NCBI GenBank assembly: GCA_903828145.1
Contig: CAIKKY010000003.1
Span: 1 to 46,277 of the forward strand
Direction of reading: 5' to 3'
Source: an uncultured Hyphomicrobiales bacterium
GTDB lineage: Bacteria > Pseudomonadota > Alphaproteobacteria > Rhizobiales > Devosiaceae
Length of the DNA: 46,277 nucleotides
Under the pieces are notes generated by a model. The model did no database searches. It worked only from the letters and a program-made list of their open reading frames with translations, and was not told where the DNA came from. A program made the position numbers and the translations under genes. This document shows, in pieces, positions 14,344 through 20,845 of the stretch (the stretch's first letter is position 1; the number at the start of each line of letters is the position of its first letter).

Positions 14344-14916
14344 ATGAAGTACTCTATCCTGCACTTAATTGGTTTAGGCCTGCTTGTTGGTGGCGGCGCC
14401 TATTCAGCATCCATTCTAGCCGCCCCAAATGTAGAAGCCAGTTGCGCGCCTCTGTTTGCGGACGATGCGATGACGGACAGCGATGTCAAATCCTGCCTCC
14501 TGTGGCTCTACAATCGCGAGCCTCAAGTTGGACCAGCGGGACCGCAAGAGGCCCAGGGAGCGCCGGGGCCGCAAGGACCGGCCGGCGAACAGGGACCGCC
14601 TGGTGCGGCAGGTCCGCAGGGCGAACAGGGGCCGCCCGGCGAACAGGGGCCGCAGGGCGCGGCCGGTCTGCAGGGCTCTTCGGGCGATGATGGCGAACGC
14701 GGGCCGCCGGGTCTTGTGGGGGAACGCGGCCCTCCGGGCCTTGACGGTGAGCGCGGCCCGCCAGGCGAACAGGGTCCCCCGGGACAGGATGGACAGCAAG
14801 GCCCGCCGGGCGCCGCTGGTCCCCCGGGCCAAAATGGCCAGCAAGGTCCGGCAGGACCGGCAGGACCCCAGGGCCCCCAAGGCGCGGCAGGCAGCAATGG
14901 GCATGGCCCAGAGTGA
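14344..14916 (+). CDS. Exported collagen-like Gly-X-Y protein
   Basis: A 190-residue protein. Residues 1-27 form a signal peptide or anchor (hydrophobic [13 protein letters not shown]). Residues 28-62 are a small acidic head with C34 and C51, which may form a disulfide or trimer link. Residues 63-188 are 42 consecutive collagen triplets rich in GPP, GEQ, GPQ and GER. Only the third triplet lacks Gly: E69 is GAG, one base from GGG. Such bacterial collagens form triple helices and act in surface adhesion or spore or filament structures; the role here is unknown. GGAGGG lies about 8 nt before the ATG. It stands alone behind AT-rich DNA and has its own terminator. Confidence 0.9.
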
Positions 14917-15058: not shown

Positions 15059-15135
15059 TGGTCGGAGTGACAGGATTTGAACCTGCGACCCTTTGTCCCC
15101 CAGACAAATGCGCTACCAGGCTGCGCTACACCCCG
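15059..15135 (-). tRNA. tRNA-Pro (anticodon GGG)
   Basis: A 77-nt class I tRNA read leftward: acceptor CGGGGTG/CACTCCG with one G-U pair, anticodon arm TTTGT-CTGGGGG-ACAAA giving anticodon GGG, T-loop GGTTCAAATCC, encoded discriminator A and CCA (15059-15062). A matching terminator follows. Confidence 0.96.
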
Positions 15136-15197: not shown

Positions 15198-16007
15198 CTA
15201 GCGGGCGACCAGCACGGCGATGCCGCGCCGCTCGAAGGCCTGCGCATCGGCATCGGAAATGCCCGCATCGGTAATGAAGCTTTGCACCATGTCGAGTGCG
15301 CCGAGCCGCGTGAAGCTGGCGCGGCCGATCTTGGTGGAATCGGCCACGAGATAGGTATGGGCCGCCGCCTTGATCATGGCTTCCTTCAGTTGCAGGTCGG
15401 CAAAGCTCGGATAAGTCAGCCCCGCATCAAGGCTGACACCTGCGGTGGCGAGAAACAGCTTGCCTGCAAAGATGTTGCGGAAATAGTCCACCGACTTGTC
15501 GCCCGACAGCGACAGCGTGGGTGCCTTGAACTGGCCACCCGGCATATGCACCGCAATGCCGGGCACGGCTCCCAGCACCAGCGCGATGTTCAGCGCATTG
15601 GTGATGACCGTCAGGTCGCGTCGTTCGGTGAGGCGGAGCGCGACTTCAGTGGTCGTCGACCCGGCATCGAGGATGAGGGTCTCCCCATCCCCCACGAGGC
15701 TGGCGGCGAATGCGCCGATGCGCCGCTTCCTGTCCATGTTCTCGGTATGCTGCAGCGCCAGCGCGCCCACCTGCTGCGGCACGGTTTTGAGAAAGGCGCC
15801 GCCATGCTCGCGGGTGACCTGGCCCTCCAGTTCAAGCTTTTCGAGATCCTGCCGGATAGTGGCCTCGGACACCTCAAAGGCGGCCGCCAGGTCGCGGACG
15901 CGGGCGCTGCCTTCTTCCTGAAGCCAATCGAAAATACGCCGCCGTCTCGGCTCGGCCAGAAGGCCGGGTCCGCCCAAGGGGGGTCTGTCCGGGTCAAGAC
16001 GTGTCAT
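15198..16007 (-). CDS. DeoR-family transcriptional regulator of the sugar operon
   Basis: A 269-residue regulator. The N-terminal winged HTH (about residues 20-70) shows RRRRIFDWLQEEG and VSEATIRQDLEKLELEG, followed by the family's REHGGA. The C-terminal sugar-phosphate sensor domain has LDAGSTTTEVAL and VVADSTKIGRASF-like pieces (SVDYFRNIF, LVADSTKIG). It is divergent from the isomerase gene with only 114 nt between, so it most likely represses that operon and responds to a phosphorylated intermediate. The frame is open far upstream (to 16859) over the isomerase gene; MTRLDPDRPP at 16007 is the sensible start. Confidence 0.9.
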   Translation of the reverse strand: MTRLDPDRPPLGGPGLLAEPRRRRIFDWLQEEGSARVRDLAAAFEVSEATIRQDLEKLELEGQVTREHGGAFLKTVPQQVGALALQHTENMDRKRRIGAFAASLVGDGETLILDAGSTTTEVALRLTERRDLTVITNALNIALVLGAVPGIAVHMPGGQFKAPTLSLSGDKSVDYFRNIFAGKLFLATAGVSLDAGLTYPSFADLQLKEAMIKAAAHTYLVADSTKIGRASFTRLGALDMVQSFITDAGISDADAQAFERRGIAVLVAR

Positions 16008-16073
16008 CGGTTTACCGCAGGTCCTCGGTGTTTCGTGATCGTATAGCAGGGGAATCGCCTTGCCGCGAACCCC

Positions 16074-16108
16074 AAACGAAGATAAACGCAAATTATCGAG
16101 AGAAAACG
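16074..16108. promoter_or_regulatory. 10-bp-phased repeats, candidate DeoR operator
   Basis: In the divergent gap the pentamer AAACG occurs at 16074-16078, 16084-16088 and 16104-16108, with the related TATCG at 16094-16098. All four are spaced by exactly 10 bp, so the CG steps face one side of the helix. The array ends just before the GAGGGGG ribosome binding site (16110-16116) of the isomerase gene. DeoR-family proteins often bind tandem short repeats; binding here is inferred. Confidence 0.45.
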
Positions 16109-16121
16109 CGAGGGGGATCGC

Positions 16122-17588
16122 ATGGCACTCACAATTCGGCGCAAGGTGACGCTGGGGCTCGTGGTCGGCAGCCGCCAGTTCTTCAACGGGGCGCCCTGCC
16201 GGGCGGCGCGAGATGAGGCCATGGCGCAGCTCGAAAGGCTCGGGGTGGAGATCATCACCCTGCCCTTCGAGGCGACGGTCAATGGCGCGGTGCAATCGAT
16301 TGCCGATGCCGAACTCTACGCGCAGCACTTCAAGACGCACCGCGATGCGCTGGATGGTCTCGTGATCCTCCTGCCCAATTTTGGCGACGAAATTGCCATT
16401 GCCGAGCTGGTCAACCGCGCCAAGCTCACTGTGCCGATCCTCCTGCAGGCGAGCAATGATGAGGTCGACAAGGTTGACGTGCATTCGCGCCGCGACGCCT
16501 TTTGCGGCAAAATCTCGATCACCAATAATTTCTACCAGTATGGCGTGCCGTTCACCGAGACGACCGCGCACACCATGGACGTCTCGAGTGCGGCATTTGG
16601 GGCCGATCTTGAGCGCTTTGCGCGGGTGTGCCGCACGGTCCGGGGCCTGCGCGGGGCGCGGCTCGGGTCGATTGGCGCGCGCACCGGCGCGTTCCAGACC
16701 ATGCGCTACTCCGAAAAGCTGTTGCAGCAGGCCGGGATCACGGTTGTTACCGTTGATCTGTCGGAAATGATCGGCGCGGCCGAAAAGGTCTCGGACACGG
16801 ATACCGATCTGCAAAAGAAACTTGCGGCCATCACCGCCTATGGGCGCATTCCGGCCCATATCAAACCAGCCCAGATTGCGAAGCAGGCCAAGTGGAGCCT
16901 CACGGTTGACCGCTGGATCGAGGCGAATGAATGCGACGCCTCAGCCATCCAGTGCTGGCGCTCCTTGCAGGATAATTTCGGCTGCGCCACCTGCCTCACC
17001 ATGTCGATGATGGGCGAAGAGCTGATGCCGTCGGCCTGTGAGGTCGACATCATGGGCGCGCTGTCGATGTACGCGCTGGCGCTCGCCTCGGGCGCACCGC
17101 CAGCGATCCTCGACTGGAACAACAACTACGCCAACGAAACCGACAAGTGCGTGTGCACCCACTGCGGCAATTTCCCGAAGAAATTCATCGGCGATACGCC
17201 GGAAATCGGTGAGCTCGATGTGCTCGGCGAGACGATCGGGCGGGAAAAATGCTTTGGCGCGGTCAAGGGCAAGGTGAAGGCCGGACCCATGACCTATTTC
17301 CGCATTTCGTCGGATGATCGGCATGGCACGCTCAAGACCTATCTCGGCGAGGGTGAGTTCACCGACGATCCCTTCGGCATGGATGGCGGCATTGCCGTGA
17401 CCAAGGTGAATGAGCTGCGCAAGCTCATGCGCTTTGTCACCCAGAACGGGTTTGAGCATCACGTGGCCATGGTGCGCGGCCACCATGCCGATGTCGTCAA
17501 CGAGGCGGTGACGCGCTACCTCGGCTGGCCGATCTACCACCATGGCGGCGAGACCGAACCGCAGCTTTTCCTTCCCCGTCGCTTCTGA
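16122..17588 (+). CDS. L-fucose/L-arabinose isomerase-family sugar isomerase
   Basis: A 488-residue protein of the FucI/AraA fold, shorter than E. coli FucI (591). The metal site appears conserved: E307 in ACEVDIMGAL and D331 in LDWNNN are 24 residues apart, as E337 and D361 are in FucI, and H454/H455 in RGHHADVV can serve as the third ligand. A cysteine group CVCTHCGN (343-350) follows the active-site strand. The family interconverts aldoses and ketoses with a divalent metal. As the first gene of the operon it presumably makes the ketose that the kinase and transketolase use. Sulfoquinovose or apiose-like sugars are possible substrates; neither is proven. The ATG follows GAGGGGG by 5 nt. Confidence 0.85.
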   Translation: MALTIRRKVTLGLVVGSRQFFNGAPCRAARDEAMAQLERLGVEIITLPFEATVNGAVQSIADAELYAQHFKTHRDALDGLVILLPNFGDEIAIAELVNRAKLTVPILLQASNDEVDKVDVHSRRDAFCGKISITNNFYQYGVPFTETTAHTMDVSSAAFGADLERFARVCRTVRGLRGARLGSIGARTGAFQTMRYSEKLLQQAGITVVTVDLSEMIGAAEKVSDTDTDLQKKLAAITAYGRIPAHIKPAQIAKQAKWSLTVDRWIEANECDASAIQCWRSLQDNFGCATCLTMSMMGEELMPSACEVDIMGALSMYALALASGAPPAILDWNNNYANETDKCVCTHCGNFPKKFIGDTPEIGELDVLGETIGREKCFGAVKGKVKAGPMTYFRISSDDRHGTLKTYLGEGEFTDDPFGMDGGIAVTKVNELRKLMRFVTQNGFEHHVAMVRGHHADVVNEAVTRYLGWPIYHHGGETEPQLFLPRRF

Positions 17589-17598
17589 GGAGCCCGAG

Positions 17599-18420
17599 AT
17601 GGCCGACCCGCAAACCATCGAGGCGATCCGCACCCGTGCGCTGTTCATGCGGCGGCGCGCCTTCACGATGGTGTTCAACAAGCAGTTGGGGCACCCCGGC
17701 GGGGATTTTTCGGCCACCGATATTCTCGCCACGCTCTTTGGCGGCGTGCTGCGGTTCGACCCCAAACGCCCCGACTGGGCCGACCGCGACCGCTTCATTC
17801 TATCAAAAGGCCATGCCACGGGGGCGCTCTATACTGCGCTCGCGGCGGCGGGCTATTTCGACGAGGCGTTGCTGGACACCTATATGGGGCCGCATTCCCG
17901 GCTCAATGGTCACCCCAACCGCCAGTATCTGCCGGGGGTGGAAACCAACACGGGGCCCCTGGGCCACGGGTTCCCCGTTGCAGTGGGCGTCGCCATTGCC
18001 GCAGCGCTGCAGGGCAAGGACTACCGCACCTTCGTATTGACCGGCGATGGCGAATTGCAGGAAGGCTCGAACTGGGAGGCCGCCATGTGTGCCGGGCACC
18101 GCAAGCTCGCCAATCTCACCCTGATTATTGATCGCAACCAGTTGCAGCAGGGCGCGCCCACCGAAGAAACCTCAGCGCTCAACCCGCTGTGGGACAAGTT
18201 CCGGGCCTTCGGCTTTGCCGTTGAGCAGGTGGATGGCCACAGCATTGAAGCGCTCTACGATGTGCTGTCGGCACCGCCCGGCGCGCGGACGGGACCGCTG
18301 TGTGTGATCGCCAATACAATCAAGGGCAAGGGCGTCTCGTTTATGGAAAACAATGCCGCCTGGCATCACGGCGTGCCGAATGAAGCGCAATTCGCGCAGG
18401 CGATGGAGGAACTCGTCTGA
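17599..18420 (+). CDS. Transketolase, N-terminal (TPP pyrophosphate-binding) subunit
   Basis: A 273-residue half-transketolase. GHPGGDFSATDILATLF, SKGHATGALYTAL, and LGHGFPVAVG are the substrate-channel motifs. The thiamine pyrophosphate motif starts at G149-D150-G151 (GDGELQEG) and ends at DRNQLQ. GAGGAG lies 6 nt before the ATG at 17599, ruling out the longer frame from 17542. Together with the next gene it forms a split enzyme of the type used in apulose-4-phosphate transketolase (AptAB) and in the sulfoglycolytic transketolase SqwGH. The two-gene form is not a frameshift: the stop and start overlap as TGATG. Confidence 0.92.
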   Translation: MADPQTIEAIRTRALFMRRRAFTMVFNKQLGHPGGDFSATDILATLFGGVLRFDPKRPDWADRDRFILSKGHATGALYTALAAAGYFDEALLDTYMGPHSRLNGHPNRQYLPGVETNTGPLGHGFPVAVGVAIAAALQGKDYRTFVLTGDGELQEGSNWEAAMCAGHRKLANLTLIIDRNQLQQGAPTEETSALNPLWDKFRAFGFAVEQVDGHSIEALYDVLSAPPGARTGPLCVIANTIKGKGVSFMENNAAWHHGVPNEAQFAQAMEELV

Positions 18421-19382
18421 TGGCCGGAACAGAGGCTGCGGCGGGGCGGTTCGATTGCCGCGACGCCTTCGCAAAGACCCTCGAAGCTTTGGCCGATGCC
18501 GACGCCCGCGTGGTGGCGGTGGTCAATGACTCGGTGGGCTCGTCGAAGCTGGGCGGGTTCAAAGCGAAATTCGGCGCGCGGCTCGTCAATGTTGGCATTG
18601 CCGAGCAATTGATGGTGGGCGTTGGCGCCGGGCTCGCCAATGGCGGGATGATCCCTTTCGTATCCGCCGCCTCGTGTTTCATCACCGGGCGCGCGCTGGA
18701 ACAGGTGAAGGCCGATGTGGCCTATTCGGGGTTCAACGTGAAGCTCGTCGGCCAATCGGCGGGCATCGCCTATGGCGAACTGGGACCGACGCATCACTCC
18801 ATCGAGGATTTTGCCTGGCTCCGGGCGCTCAAAGACATCATCGTGCTTGTGCCCGCCGACCCGTGGGAAACCGAGGCGGCCGTGCGTTTTGCGCATCGGC
18901 ATGAGGGACCGGTCTATATCCGGCTCGGGCGCATGGGTGTGCCCGCCCTGCCCCATACCGCGCCGCACTATGTGCCGGGGCAGGCTGAAGTGTTGAACTC
19001 CGGCACCGATGTGACGCTCATCGGGCTAGGCACCACGGTGCATCTGACCCTTGCCGCTGCCGAGCTCCTCGCGACCGAGGGGATTTCAGCGCGGGTGCTG
19101 AACATGATGAGCCTCAACCCGCTTGATGAGGCCGCGATCCTCACCGCCGCGCGGGAGACCGGCGCGCTGGTCACCGCCGAAGAAGCGCTGGTGAGCGGCG
19201 GGCTGGGCGGCGCGGTGGCGGAACTGTTGACCGCGAATGACCCCGTGCCGCTCAACCGCGTGGGGTTCAGCGGCTTCCAGCCCACCGGCACCGTAGCGGC
19301 GCTGTTTGCTGAGGCCGGACTGACGGCCGAGGGCATAGCGGCGGCGGCTCGCGCGGCGATGGCGCGGAAGCGGCCGCAATGA
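18420..19382 (+). CDS. Transketolase, C-terminal (pyrimidine-binding) subunit
   Basis: A 320-residue partner subunit with the pyrimidine-binding domain (residues 10-170) and the C-terminal transketolase domain (about 185-315). E62 in NVGIAEQLMVGVGAG is the glutamate that activates thiamine. GPTHHSIEDFAWLRALKDI and the closing EEALVSGGLGGAV follow family order. It begins in the stop of the N-subunit (TGATG) and ends in an ATGA overlap with the kinase, so the three genes are translated as a unit. Confidence 0.92.
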   Translation: MAGTEAAAGRFDCRDAFAKTLEALADADARVVAVVNDSVGSSKLGGFKAKFGARLVNVGIAEQLMVGVGAGLANGGMIPFVSAASCFITGRALEQVKADVAYSGFNVKLVGQSAGIAYGELGPTHHSIEDFAWLRALKDIIVLVPADPWETEAAVRFAHRHEGPVYIRLGRMGVPALPHTAPHYVPGQAEVLNSGTDVTLIGLGTTVHLTLAAAELLATEGISARVLNMMSLNPLDEAAILTAARETGALVTAEEALVSGGLGGAVAELLTANDPVPLNRVGFSGFQPTGTVAALFAEAGLTAEGIAAAARAAMARKRPQ

Positions 19383-20845
19383 CCCCGCGGATCGTTACGC
19401 TGGATCAGGGCACCAGCAGTACCAAGGCGCTGATCGTCGATGTCGCAGGGCATGTGCATGCCCGCGCCTCGGTACCGCTGACCTCGCTCTATCCGCAAGA
19501 CGGCTGGGCCGAGCAATCGGCCGAGGCGATCTGGCAGAGCGTGCAGCAGGCGATTGCCATCGTGGTGGCCGAGGCCGGTGCCGAGGGCATTGTCGGGCTG
19601 GCGCTCGCCAACCAGCGCGAAACCATCGTGCTGTGGGATGCCGATACAGCGCGGCCGATTGCCAATGCAATCCTCTGGCAATGCGGGCGCGGCGCGGCGC
19701 TTTGCGACACGCTCATCGCCGAGGGACACAATGAGGCGGTCGAGGCGGCGACCGGGCTCGGGATTTCCTCGATGTTCCCGGCCTCGAAGCTGGCCCATGC
19801 CTATGCGGCCCTGCCCGAGGCGCGGGCGCTCCACACGGCGGGTCGGCTTCGGGCCGGCACCGTGGATGCGTGGCTCCTCTTCAACCTGACGGGCGGACGC
19901 CGTTTTGCGACCGATCATTCGAACGCGTCGCGCACCCAGCTTTTCGATACCGCCGCGCTCCGGTTCAGCCCGGCGCTCGGCGCCCTGTTCGGCGTACCGA
20001 TCGATATTCTCCCCGAGCCGCTGCCGTCGGATGCGCGGTTTGGCGAAACGGCCGAGGGGGCAACCGCGCTTCCGGCTGGGCTGCCGATCCACGCGATGCT
20101 GGGCGATAGCCATGCAGCGCTGTTTGGCCATGGCGTGCGCAGCCCCGGGCCCGTAAAGGCGACCTATGGCACCGGCTCATCGCTGATGACGCTCACCGAG
20201 GGCCGGGTGCTCTCCAGCCACGGGCTGTCCGGCACCATCGCCTGGACCACGGGCCAAACCACCCATTACGCGCTTGAGGGCAATATCATCGTCTCAGCGC
20301 AGGCGGCGGGTTTTGCCGCCAGTCTCCTCGGGCTTGCCGATGTGGCGGCGCTCGACCGGCTGGCGCAAAGCGTGCCCGATTCGGGGGGCGTGAGCTTCGT
20401 TCCGGCGCTCTCGGGGCTCGGCGCGCCGCATTGGCGAACTGATGCGCGAGGGCTTATCGATGGGCTGTCGCTGAGCACGCAGCCGGCGCATATCGCGCGG
20501 GCGAGCTTTGAGGCCATTGCGCTGCAGATTGCCGATGTGTTTGCCGCCATGGAACAGGATCGGGACACCCGGCTCAGCGGGCTCCTTGCCGATGGCGGCG
20601 CATCAGCCAACCCGTTCCTCATGCAGGTGCAGGCCGATGTGCTCGACCGGCCTGTCGAGCGCGGCGACCTGCCGGAACTCGGCGCCCTTGGCGCGGCGGC
20701 CATGGCGTTCAATGCTTTGGGCATCGCGGCACCTGCCCTCGATAGCCCGGGCCATCCAGACCGGTTTATCCCGCGTATGGACGCCTCGCGGCGCACGGCG
20801 CTTCGCGCGGGCTGGCACGCGGCGCTGCGGCGCGTCCTCGGCTGA
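19379..20845 (+). CDS. FGGY-family carbohydrate kinase, GlpK-like but altered substrate site
   Basis: A 488-residue ATP-dependent sugar or polyol kinase. LDQGTSSTKALIVD binds ATP phosphate, NQRETIVLWD (R80, E81), LWQCGR (W100), TDHSNASRTQLFD and GDSHAALFG (D243, catalytic base) match glycerol kinase. The Tyr that touches glycerol in E. coli GlpK (Y135 in YFSGTK) aligns with Met132 (MFPASK), so glycerol is probably not the substrate. In context it should phosphorylate the ketose made by the isomerase, producing the donor for the split transketolase, as D-apulose kinase does in apiose catabolism. The start overlaps the upstream stop as ATGA. Confidence 0.88.
   Translation: MTPRIVTLDQGTSSTKALIVDVAGHVHARASVPLTSLYPQDGWAEQSAEAIWQSVQQAIAIVVAEAGAEGIVGLALANQRETIVLWDADTARPIANAILWQCGRGAALCDTLIAEGHNEAVEAATGLGISSMFPASKLAHAYAALPEARALHTAGRLRAGTVDAWLLFNLTGGRRFATDHSNASRTQLFDTAALRFSPALGALFGVPIDILPEPLPSDARFGETAEGATALPAGLPIHAMLGDSHAALFGHGVRSPGPVKATYGTGSSLMTLTEGRVLSSHGLSGTIAWTTGQTTHYALEGNIIVSAQAAGFAASLLGLADVAALDRLAQSVPDSGGVSFVPALSGLGAPHWRTDARGLIDGLSLSTQPAHIARASFEAIALQIADVFAAMEQDRDTRLSGLLADGGASANPFLMQVQADVLDRPVERGDLPELGALGAAAMAFNALGIAAPALDSPGHPDRFIPRMDASRRTALRAGWHAALRRVLG

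Follow-up and report, generated by a model that had tools for sequence, protein, structure and literature searches.

D-apiose is a branched sugar of plant cell walls. The closest described system to the locus considered here is the transketolase pathway of D-apiose, formed by ApsI, AplK and AptAB (MetaCyc PWY-8089). The available part of one report places apsI in Pectobacterium carotovorum and, with the cluster of E. coli SE15 as the query, describes a D-apiose cluster of E. coli and Klebsiella, where two short-chain dehydrogenase/reductase (SDR) oxidoreductases are hypothesised as substitutes for ApsI (PMC13001218). According to the same part, cluster-bearing strains grew on D-apiose and K-12 did not; there was no gene deletion, and SE15 was not among the strains grown. 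The SE15 cluster encodes the kinase, AptA, AptB, components of an ATP-binding cassette (ABC) importer and a DUF2291 protein. Its proteins served as the AplK and AptAB references in our comparisons.

The window is a 46,277-nucleotide stretch of DNA from an uncultured Hyphomicrobiales bacterium of the family Devosiaceae (CAIKKY010000003.1, contig 3 of the 2.95-Mb assembly GCA_903828145.1, 98.3% complete). The open reading frame (ORF) list and the Pfam scan delineate four tightly packed genes on the + strand. They encode an aldose-ketose isomerase of the FucI/AraA fold (16122..17588; PF02952 Fucose_iso_C, 105 bits, cut-off 29.3), the N-terminal, thiamine diphosphate-binding subunit of a split transketolase (TKN, AptA-like; 17599..18420; PF00456, 149 bits), its C-terminal, pyrimidine-binding subunit (TKC, AptB-like; 18420..19382; PF02779 and PF02780) and an AplK-like FGGY kinase of GlpK descent (19379..20845; PF00370 and PF02782). 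This operon very probably encodes a non-oxidative transketolase route for D-apiose, a variant of the known pathway in which the FucI/AraA-fold isomerase would replace ApsI. The initial annotation had recognised the order aldose, ketose, ketose phosphate and transketolase cleavage as that of the D-apiose route, and indeed the set looks like the D-apiose set itself.

The predicted enzymes and their reactions

In the proposed route, the isomerase would convert D-apiose to D-apulose by a metal-assisted shift, and the AplK-like kinase, judged by homology, would then form D-apulose 4-phosphate. Phosphorylation at the dihydroxyacetone-like end of apulose would fit a kinase of GlpK descent. Finally, the split transketolase would transfer two carbons from apulose 4-phosphate onto glyceraldehyde 3-phosphate, yielding dihydroxyacetone phosphate and xylulose 5-phosphate, which is reportedly the reaction of this enzyme on apulose 4-phosphate. 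In Rhizobium CC-CFT758 the kinase gene is followed by one for triosephosphate isomerase, in keeping with a route that forms dihydroxyacetone phosphate at the expense of glyceraldehyde 3-phosphate.

The sequence of the isomerase has no match in PDB at E 0.001. However, its AlphaFold model (predicted local distance difference test score, pLDDT, 90.8) has a template modelling (TM) score of 0.81 to L-arabinose isomerase AraA, and of 0.73 both to L-fucose isomerase FucI and to D-arabinose isomerase (3a9r), the sequence identity to these structural matches being 11-14%. The fold and a PF02952 score above the gathering threshold place the protein in the FucI/AraA superfamily. It does not belong to the ApsI family of TIM barrels, as it has PF02952 instead of PF01261, and a search of the window's own genome for an ApsI match at E 1e-60 found none. 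Residues E307, D331 and H447 show no variation in 39 aligned sequences; they are presumed metal ligands by analogy with FucI. The enzyme is probably metal-dependent, judging by position and fold. We propose it as a predicted D-apiose isomerase non-homologous to ApsI.

The kinase is 58% identical to that of Rhizobium sp. SL42, 42.6% to E. coli AplK and 35.7% to E. coli GlpK, and thus belongs with the AplK-type FGGY kinases by a modest margin. It scores below the cut-offs of both GlpK models (TIGR01311, 445.9 of 590.35 bits; NF000756, 420.3 of 498 bits). The initial annotation called it an altered GlpK-type kinase, and rightly so: serine occupies both positions aligned with Q246 and F270 of E. 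coli GlpK, and methionine that of Y135, whereas R83, E84 and D245 are retained. Both serines are present in all 21 compared kinases, E. coli AplK among them; these were chosen by hand, and four come from operons with neither isomerase. The one GlpK has Q and F. An ordinary glycerol kinase was rejected in view of the model cut-offs and the site residues. The protein is proposed to be an AplK-like D-apulose kinase.

TKN and TKC are 73% and 68% identical to the two halves in Rhizobium sp. SL42, and 45% and 42% identical to AptA and AptB of E. coli SE15, respectively. TKN also matches a split-chain transketolase in PDB (6yak, E 3e-76). A control tree was built by a quick search from 27 TKN/TKC pairs of this set and 22 other alphaproteobacterial split pairs, and rooted with E. 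coli TktA and the full-length transketolase of the window genome. A single branch separates the 27 rows, among them the window, Rhizobium and E. coli AptAB, from the 22 others (support 94, unstarred). No kinase match was found near the 22 control transketolases in the piece of DNA fetched for each. On a larger tree of 85 transketolase pairs the window falls within a branch of 24 rows, 20 with the window-type isomerase and four with ApsI (support 100, starred), so that its transketolase is orthologous to those of ApsI-type operons.

The initial annotation held that a new route would be disfavoured if the enzymes fell squarely within families of known substrate. That is largely the case for the kinase and transketolase, as kin of AplK and AptAB, and not for the isomerase.

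The ORF list starts TKN at 17542. An alternative ATG at 17599 lies 10 nucleotides past the isomerase stop codon and 6 nucleotides after a GAGGAG motif; it is the likelier start, the listed one probably being too early. TKN and TKC share one nucleotide in TGATG, and TKC and the kinase gene share four in ATGA. Such overlaps are typical of translational coupling.

Relatives of the operon and exchange of the isomerase with ApsI

Relatives of the isomerase, with 38-83% identity, are encoded at 71 loci of the named genomes scanned; the hosts are Alphaproteobacteria, Bacteroidota, Chloroflexota, Planctomycetota and Verrucomicrobia. TKN was called in 60 of them. The initial annotation had recommended comparing the neighbourhoods of relatives, and this comparison links isomerase and transketolase far beyond chance: TKN is present in 46 of the 49 loci whose isomerase is flanked by over 6 kb on each side (full-flank loci), and TKC in 44 by ORF clustering, or 46 with tblastn matches in L017 and L018. 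The same 49 loci contain a DeoR gene, a sugar-binding protein and DUF2291 in 39 cases each; the kinase was called in 29.

The isomerase is rare in the class as a whole: a class-wide sample of 385 genomes yielded four matches beyond E 1e-100, that of the window genome among them, and all four have TKN within 1 kb. Within the window's own genus it occurs in 4 of 19 genomes, again counting the window genome, at E beyond 1e-200. Comparison of both isomerase and transketolase sequences gave alphaproteobacterial proteins as the closest relatives among those compared. Operons of Rahnella, Klebsiella and Sodalis also carry the window-type isomerase, and the operon is found in Rhodobacter capsulatus as well (L014 and L068). 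In one relative from the same family (G028:C1:383573-385003, L102), the matching isomerase sequence is interrupted by an in-frame TAA, and the 20 kb fetched gave no transketolase match. This homologue is probably decaying or of other use.

On a plasmid of Rhizobium sp. SL42 (L089), a DeoR gene and an ABC importer face the genes of a TIM-barrel isomerase, TKN, TKC and the kinase. Thus the homologous operon has a PF01261 protein in the slot of the window isomerase, in agreement with the initial annotation, which had considered the latter FucI-type and not of the usual apiose isomerase family. The SL42 protein matches PDB 3ktc (E 9e-126), a Pectobacterium protein, and is therefore likely to be ApsI.

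A similar exchange was seen within g74, a genus of alphaproteobacteria with 1.4-Mb genomes. One genome (G319) has an ApsI-type gene (79% identity), and two others (G090 and G397) have the window-type isomerase (43-44%). Either isomerase occupies the position between the transketolase and the transporter-like genes that come next, and a comparison by eye showed the same flanking genes.

Three isomerase states were mapped onto the 85-pair tree, which was obtained by a quick search and carried long-branch warnings. For the ApsI label, the starred branches dictate a minimum of four gains or losses; the three states together need seven changes, the least possible number being two. ApsI-type genes are found near the transketolase in eight loci on this tree. 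The Rhizobium ApsI operons are nested in the window's alphaproteobacterial branch (100, starred). G319, with ApsI, pairs with G397, with the window-type isomerase (97, starred). The E. coli cluster, with its two SDRs, groups with the window-type operons of Rahnella, Klebsiella and Sodalis (100, starred; 46-48% identity). A FastTree run agreed on the Rhizobium, G319/G397 and E. coli nodes, and the control tree gave the same pairs. The FucI-fold isomerase is most likely a non-homologous replacement of the TIM-barrel ApsI, and bacteria have apparently made this replacement on several occasions.

Five alphaproteobacterial operons (L115-L118 and L139) consist of TKN, TKC and the kinase with neither isomerase. 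L116-L118, as seen by eye, and L139 contain SDR genes, ABC genes and a sugar-binding-type regulator, and resemble the E. coli variant.

Substrate of the operon and alternative explanations

The neighbourhoods of relatives contain candidate genes of apiose release and oxidation. Some Bacteroidota encode a GH140 apiosidase (PF13204, E ~1e-115) and a BT_1020-like protein near the isomerase, and in Dyadobacter the gene of an aceric acid hydrolase lies near the operon (1177 bits against a cut-off of 950). In total, GH140 is present in 11 of the 71 loci. At E<=1e-90 it occurs in 30 of 33 isomerase-bearing Bacteroidota genomes, which are mutually related, compared to 16 of 340 evenly drawn genomes of the class without the isomerase. 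OiaX- and OiaK-like genes lie within ~9 kb of the operon in four of the 71 loci, from Hoeflea (L011, L072) and Runella (L048, L063), which suggests that an oxidative and a non-oxidative route for apiose coexist there.

The binding proteins of relatives provide a further link. That of a Rhodobacter locus (L005) matches PDB 5ibq and 4ry0 (E ~1e-150), the former with bound D-apiose. It is 82% identical to 4ry0, which is RHE_PF00037 of R. etli, and likewise 82% identical to a binding protein of R. etli plasmid p42f, taken as the same protein. The latter is annotated as 'D-ribose' binding and lies among genes of the apionate route, namely oiaX, a four-carbon acid sugar kinase, and ApnO-, ApsD- and ApnL-like genes. 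A Paracoccus copy of ApnL scores 672 of 750 bits.

A number of observations weigh against the assignment of the operon to D-apiose. Firstly, the SL42 TIM barrel is identified as ApsI from sequence, and the AplK and AptAB references come from E. coli SE15 in place of the characterised Pectobacterium enzymes. In raw identity the window's transketolase is as near to other split transketolases (41-49/34-45%) as to E. coli AptAB (45/42%), and only the control tree parts them. Moreover, the operons L115-L118, which lack both isomerases and have the same kinase changes, fall inside the transketolase set, and thus membership of the set alone does not prove D-apiose. In g74 the kinase is only 28-30% identical to that of the window, and the importer is different. 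In the four Pantoea plasmids viewed, out of ten listed, and likewise in Croceibacterium and Pseudomonas silvicola, the ApsI homologue is not located near transketolase genes. Secondly, TKN was not found in 11 of the 71 loci, three of them full-flank (L008, L054, L069), so that some members of the isomerase family may act otherwise. The kinase was not called in 20 of the 49 full-flank loci, including all 12 from Dyadobacter and two from Rhodobacter; in these 14 it may be encoded elsewhere in the genome. Thirdly, the GH140 signal comes mostly from Dyadobacter, which accounts for 9 of the 11 loci and 12 of the 33 genomes. Restricted to the drawn sample, with the centre left out, the count falls to 2 of 4 versus 16 of 340 (p 0.015). 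The OiaX- and OiaK-like matches are below their cut-offs (427, 503 and 523 of 700 bits). Finally, no importer gene stands beside the operon in the window, while 39 of 49 full-flank relatives have the binding protein, and a search of the window genome for GH140 and OiaK gave no match for either.

The strongest rival explanation, although improbable, is an ordinary pentose route, where the isomerase would convert D-arabinose (or D-ribose) to D-ribulose, the kinase would form ribulose 5-phosphate, and the transketolase would be an extra enzyme of the pentose phosphate pathway. D-arabinose isomerase is indeed among the FucI-fold enzymes (3a9r, TM 0.73), and the binding proteins of relatives are RbsB-like, the closest solved relative being titled a ribose transporter protein. 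However, the window genome already encodes a full-length transketolase (G000:C24), and both the kinase and the split transketolase have counterparts in the Rhizobium operon and fall together with those of the E. coli apiose cluster. Besides, the hydrolases encoded beside the Dyadobacter operons are an apiosidase and an aceric acid hydrolase, and the 'D-ribose' binding protein of R. etli is located in an apionate operon.

Slightly less probable is re-use of the D-apiose kit for another branched substrate, either a sugar of rhamnogalacturonan II (RG-II), for example aceric acid, or a branched ketose derived from a polyol. The aceric acid hydrolase and BT_1020-like proteins by the Dyadobacter operons could be read this way, as could the related TKN-TKC-kinase operons with SDR genes and neither isomerase. 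On the other hand, the Dyadobacter loci have GH140 as well, and ApsI occupies the same slot in homologous operons. Furthermore, the aceric acid hydrolase and BT_1020-like hydrolases act on the same polysaccharide as the apiosidase.

The new branched-sugar or sulfosugar route considered in the initial annotation is not upheld: a sulfosugar pathway of the sulfo-transketolase (sulfo-TK) kind can be dismissed, for although SqvD is also a PF02952 protein, SqwGH also a transketolase (PMC9594981, available part), and the isomerase distantly related to NF048012, it scores only 87.5 bits against the cut-off of 700, the operon contains an FGGY kinase, none being named for sulfo-TK in that part, and apiosidase and apionate-type genes recur near relatives (no search for SqvB and SqwI homologues was made).

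DUF1593/Sde182 nucleoside-hydrolase-like proteins (PF07632; L029:12220-15097, L039:12562-13884 and L122:11005-12459), with N-termini that suggest secretion, are encoded in 21 of the 71 isomerase loci and beside ApsI in Croceibacterium. Elsewhere they are found with rhamnosidase/GH1 or GH115 genes. Perhaps these are plant-glycoside hydrolases, some acting on apiosides. A strictly apiose-linked family is not supported, since by annotation an apiose gene adjoins in only one of the five plasmid regions viewed (of seven matches). A broader reading combines two proposals, a second, unrelated D-apiose isomerase family of the FucI/AraA fold that has repeatedly traded places with ApsI, and DUF1593 as a new apiofuranoside hydrolase family feeding the operon; the two together are conceivable, although less likely than not.

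Uptake, regulation and comparison with known systems

As the initial annotation stated, no transporter gene adjoins the operon within the window; in relatives, genes for the binding protein, DUF2291 and ABC components share the locus. A search of the window genome for the importer found only distant RbsB-like proteins (21-32% identity, the best-scoring 29%; the best binding proteins 29-30%). As the usual ABC importer is absent, uptake would proceed by another transporter. Given that this 98.3% complete assembly gave no match for GH140 or OiaK and no close importer, the host probably relies on another carrier to import free apiose. The oxidative apionate route was considered for the window genome and rejected, as OiaK was not found; other apionate genes were not searched there. 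In a relative from the same genus, the DeoR gene has on its left what look by eye like an ABC permease and a peptide/oligosaccharide-type binding protein (L099:633-3617). They are a possible alternative importer.

The operon is probably repressed by the product of a divergent DeoR/GlpR-family gene on the - strand (15198..~16007; PF00455, 149 bits; PF08220, 58 bits). Its ATG at ~16007 was counted from the translation; the Pfam scan started at 15965. The protein shares 80% identity with its counterpart in the SL42 operon, which is encoded next to the ABC genes. The divergent promoter region (16008..16121) contains AAACGAA- and TTATCGA-like repeats that might serve as a DeoR operator, although this prediction is weak. 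The 8-mer AATCGAAA occurs in 12 of 22 upstream regions, which are mutually related, while no 8-mer exceeded 5 of 22 in any of 100 single-base shuffles. The window's own upstream region lacks an exact copy of AATCGAAA. A tRNA-Pro(GGG) gene adjoining the regulator (15059..15135, - strand; ARAGORN) marks the left edge of the unit. Left of it is a collagen-like Gly-X-Y repeat protein with a signal-like start (14344-14916; PF01391), and an SNase-like ORF lies to the right of the operon.

If the prediction is correct, it would provide a substrate and a pathway for proteins called only 'fucose isomerase' or 'L-fucose/L-arabinose isomerase family protein' in plasmid records, which have relatives in Alphaproteobacteria, Bacteroidota, Chloroflexota, Planctomycetota and Enterobacterales. 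There would be up to three interchangeable solutions for the first step of D-apiose catabolism, the TIM-barrel isomerase, the FucI-fold isomerase and the hypothesised SDR pair, and searches that require ApsI would miss strains with the FucI-fold enzyme. The exchange within g74 is a clean case of in-place non-homologous replacement, and DUF1593 is a possible source of new plant-glycoside hydrolases. No description of a FucI-type apiose isomerase was found in the literature searched, which did not cover the founding paper (Carter et al. 2018). It is unlikely that the characterised Pectobacterium ApsI is itself FucI-type; the novelty would fall if it were.

Among known systems, glycerol kinase GlpK shares the FGGY family and R83, E84 and D245 with the window kinase, and differs from it at the three substituted positions and in the scores under both GlpK models. 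L-fucose, L-arabinose and D-arabinose isomerases resemble the window isomerase in fold, and differ from it in sequence, with 11-14% identity and no PDB match. The sulfoquinovose isomerase SftI/SqvD (NF048012) belongs to the same broad PF02952 family and also works with a transketolase, in sulfo-TK; the window protein falls outside it by score, and its operon has the FGGY kinase. The E. coli/Klebsiella cluster (PMC13001218, available part) contains homologues of the kinase, AptA and AptB, and ApsI is missing there too; its regulator has a PF04198 sugar-binding domain, whereas the window has a DeoR regulator and a single isomerase. The D-apiose transketolase pathway is the most similar. It has the split transketolase and the FGGY kinase in common with the window, and the RbsB-type ABC importer with DUF2291 in common with relatives of the window operon, and the homology extends to the Rhizobium SL42 operon and the E. 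coli SE15 cluster. The differences are the importer genes, absent from the window, and the first enzyme, where a PF02952 protein of the FucI/AraA fold stands instead of the PF01261 TIM barrel.

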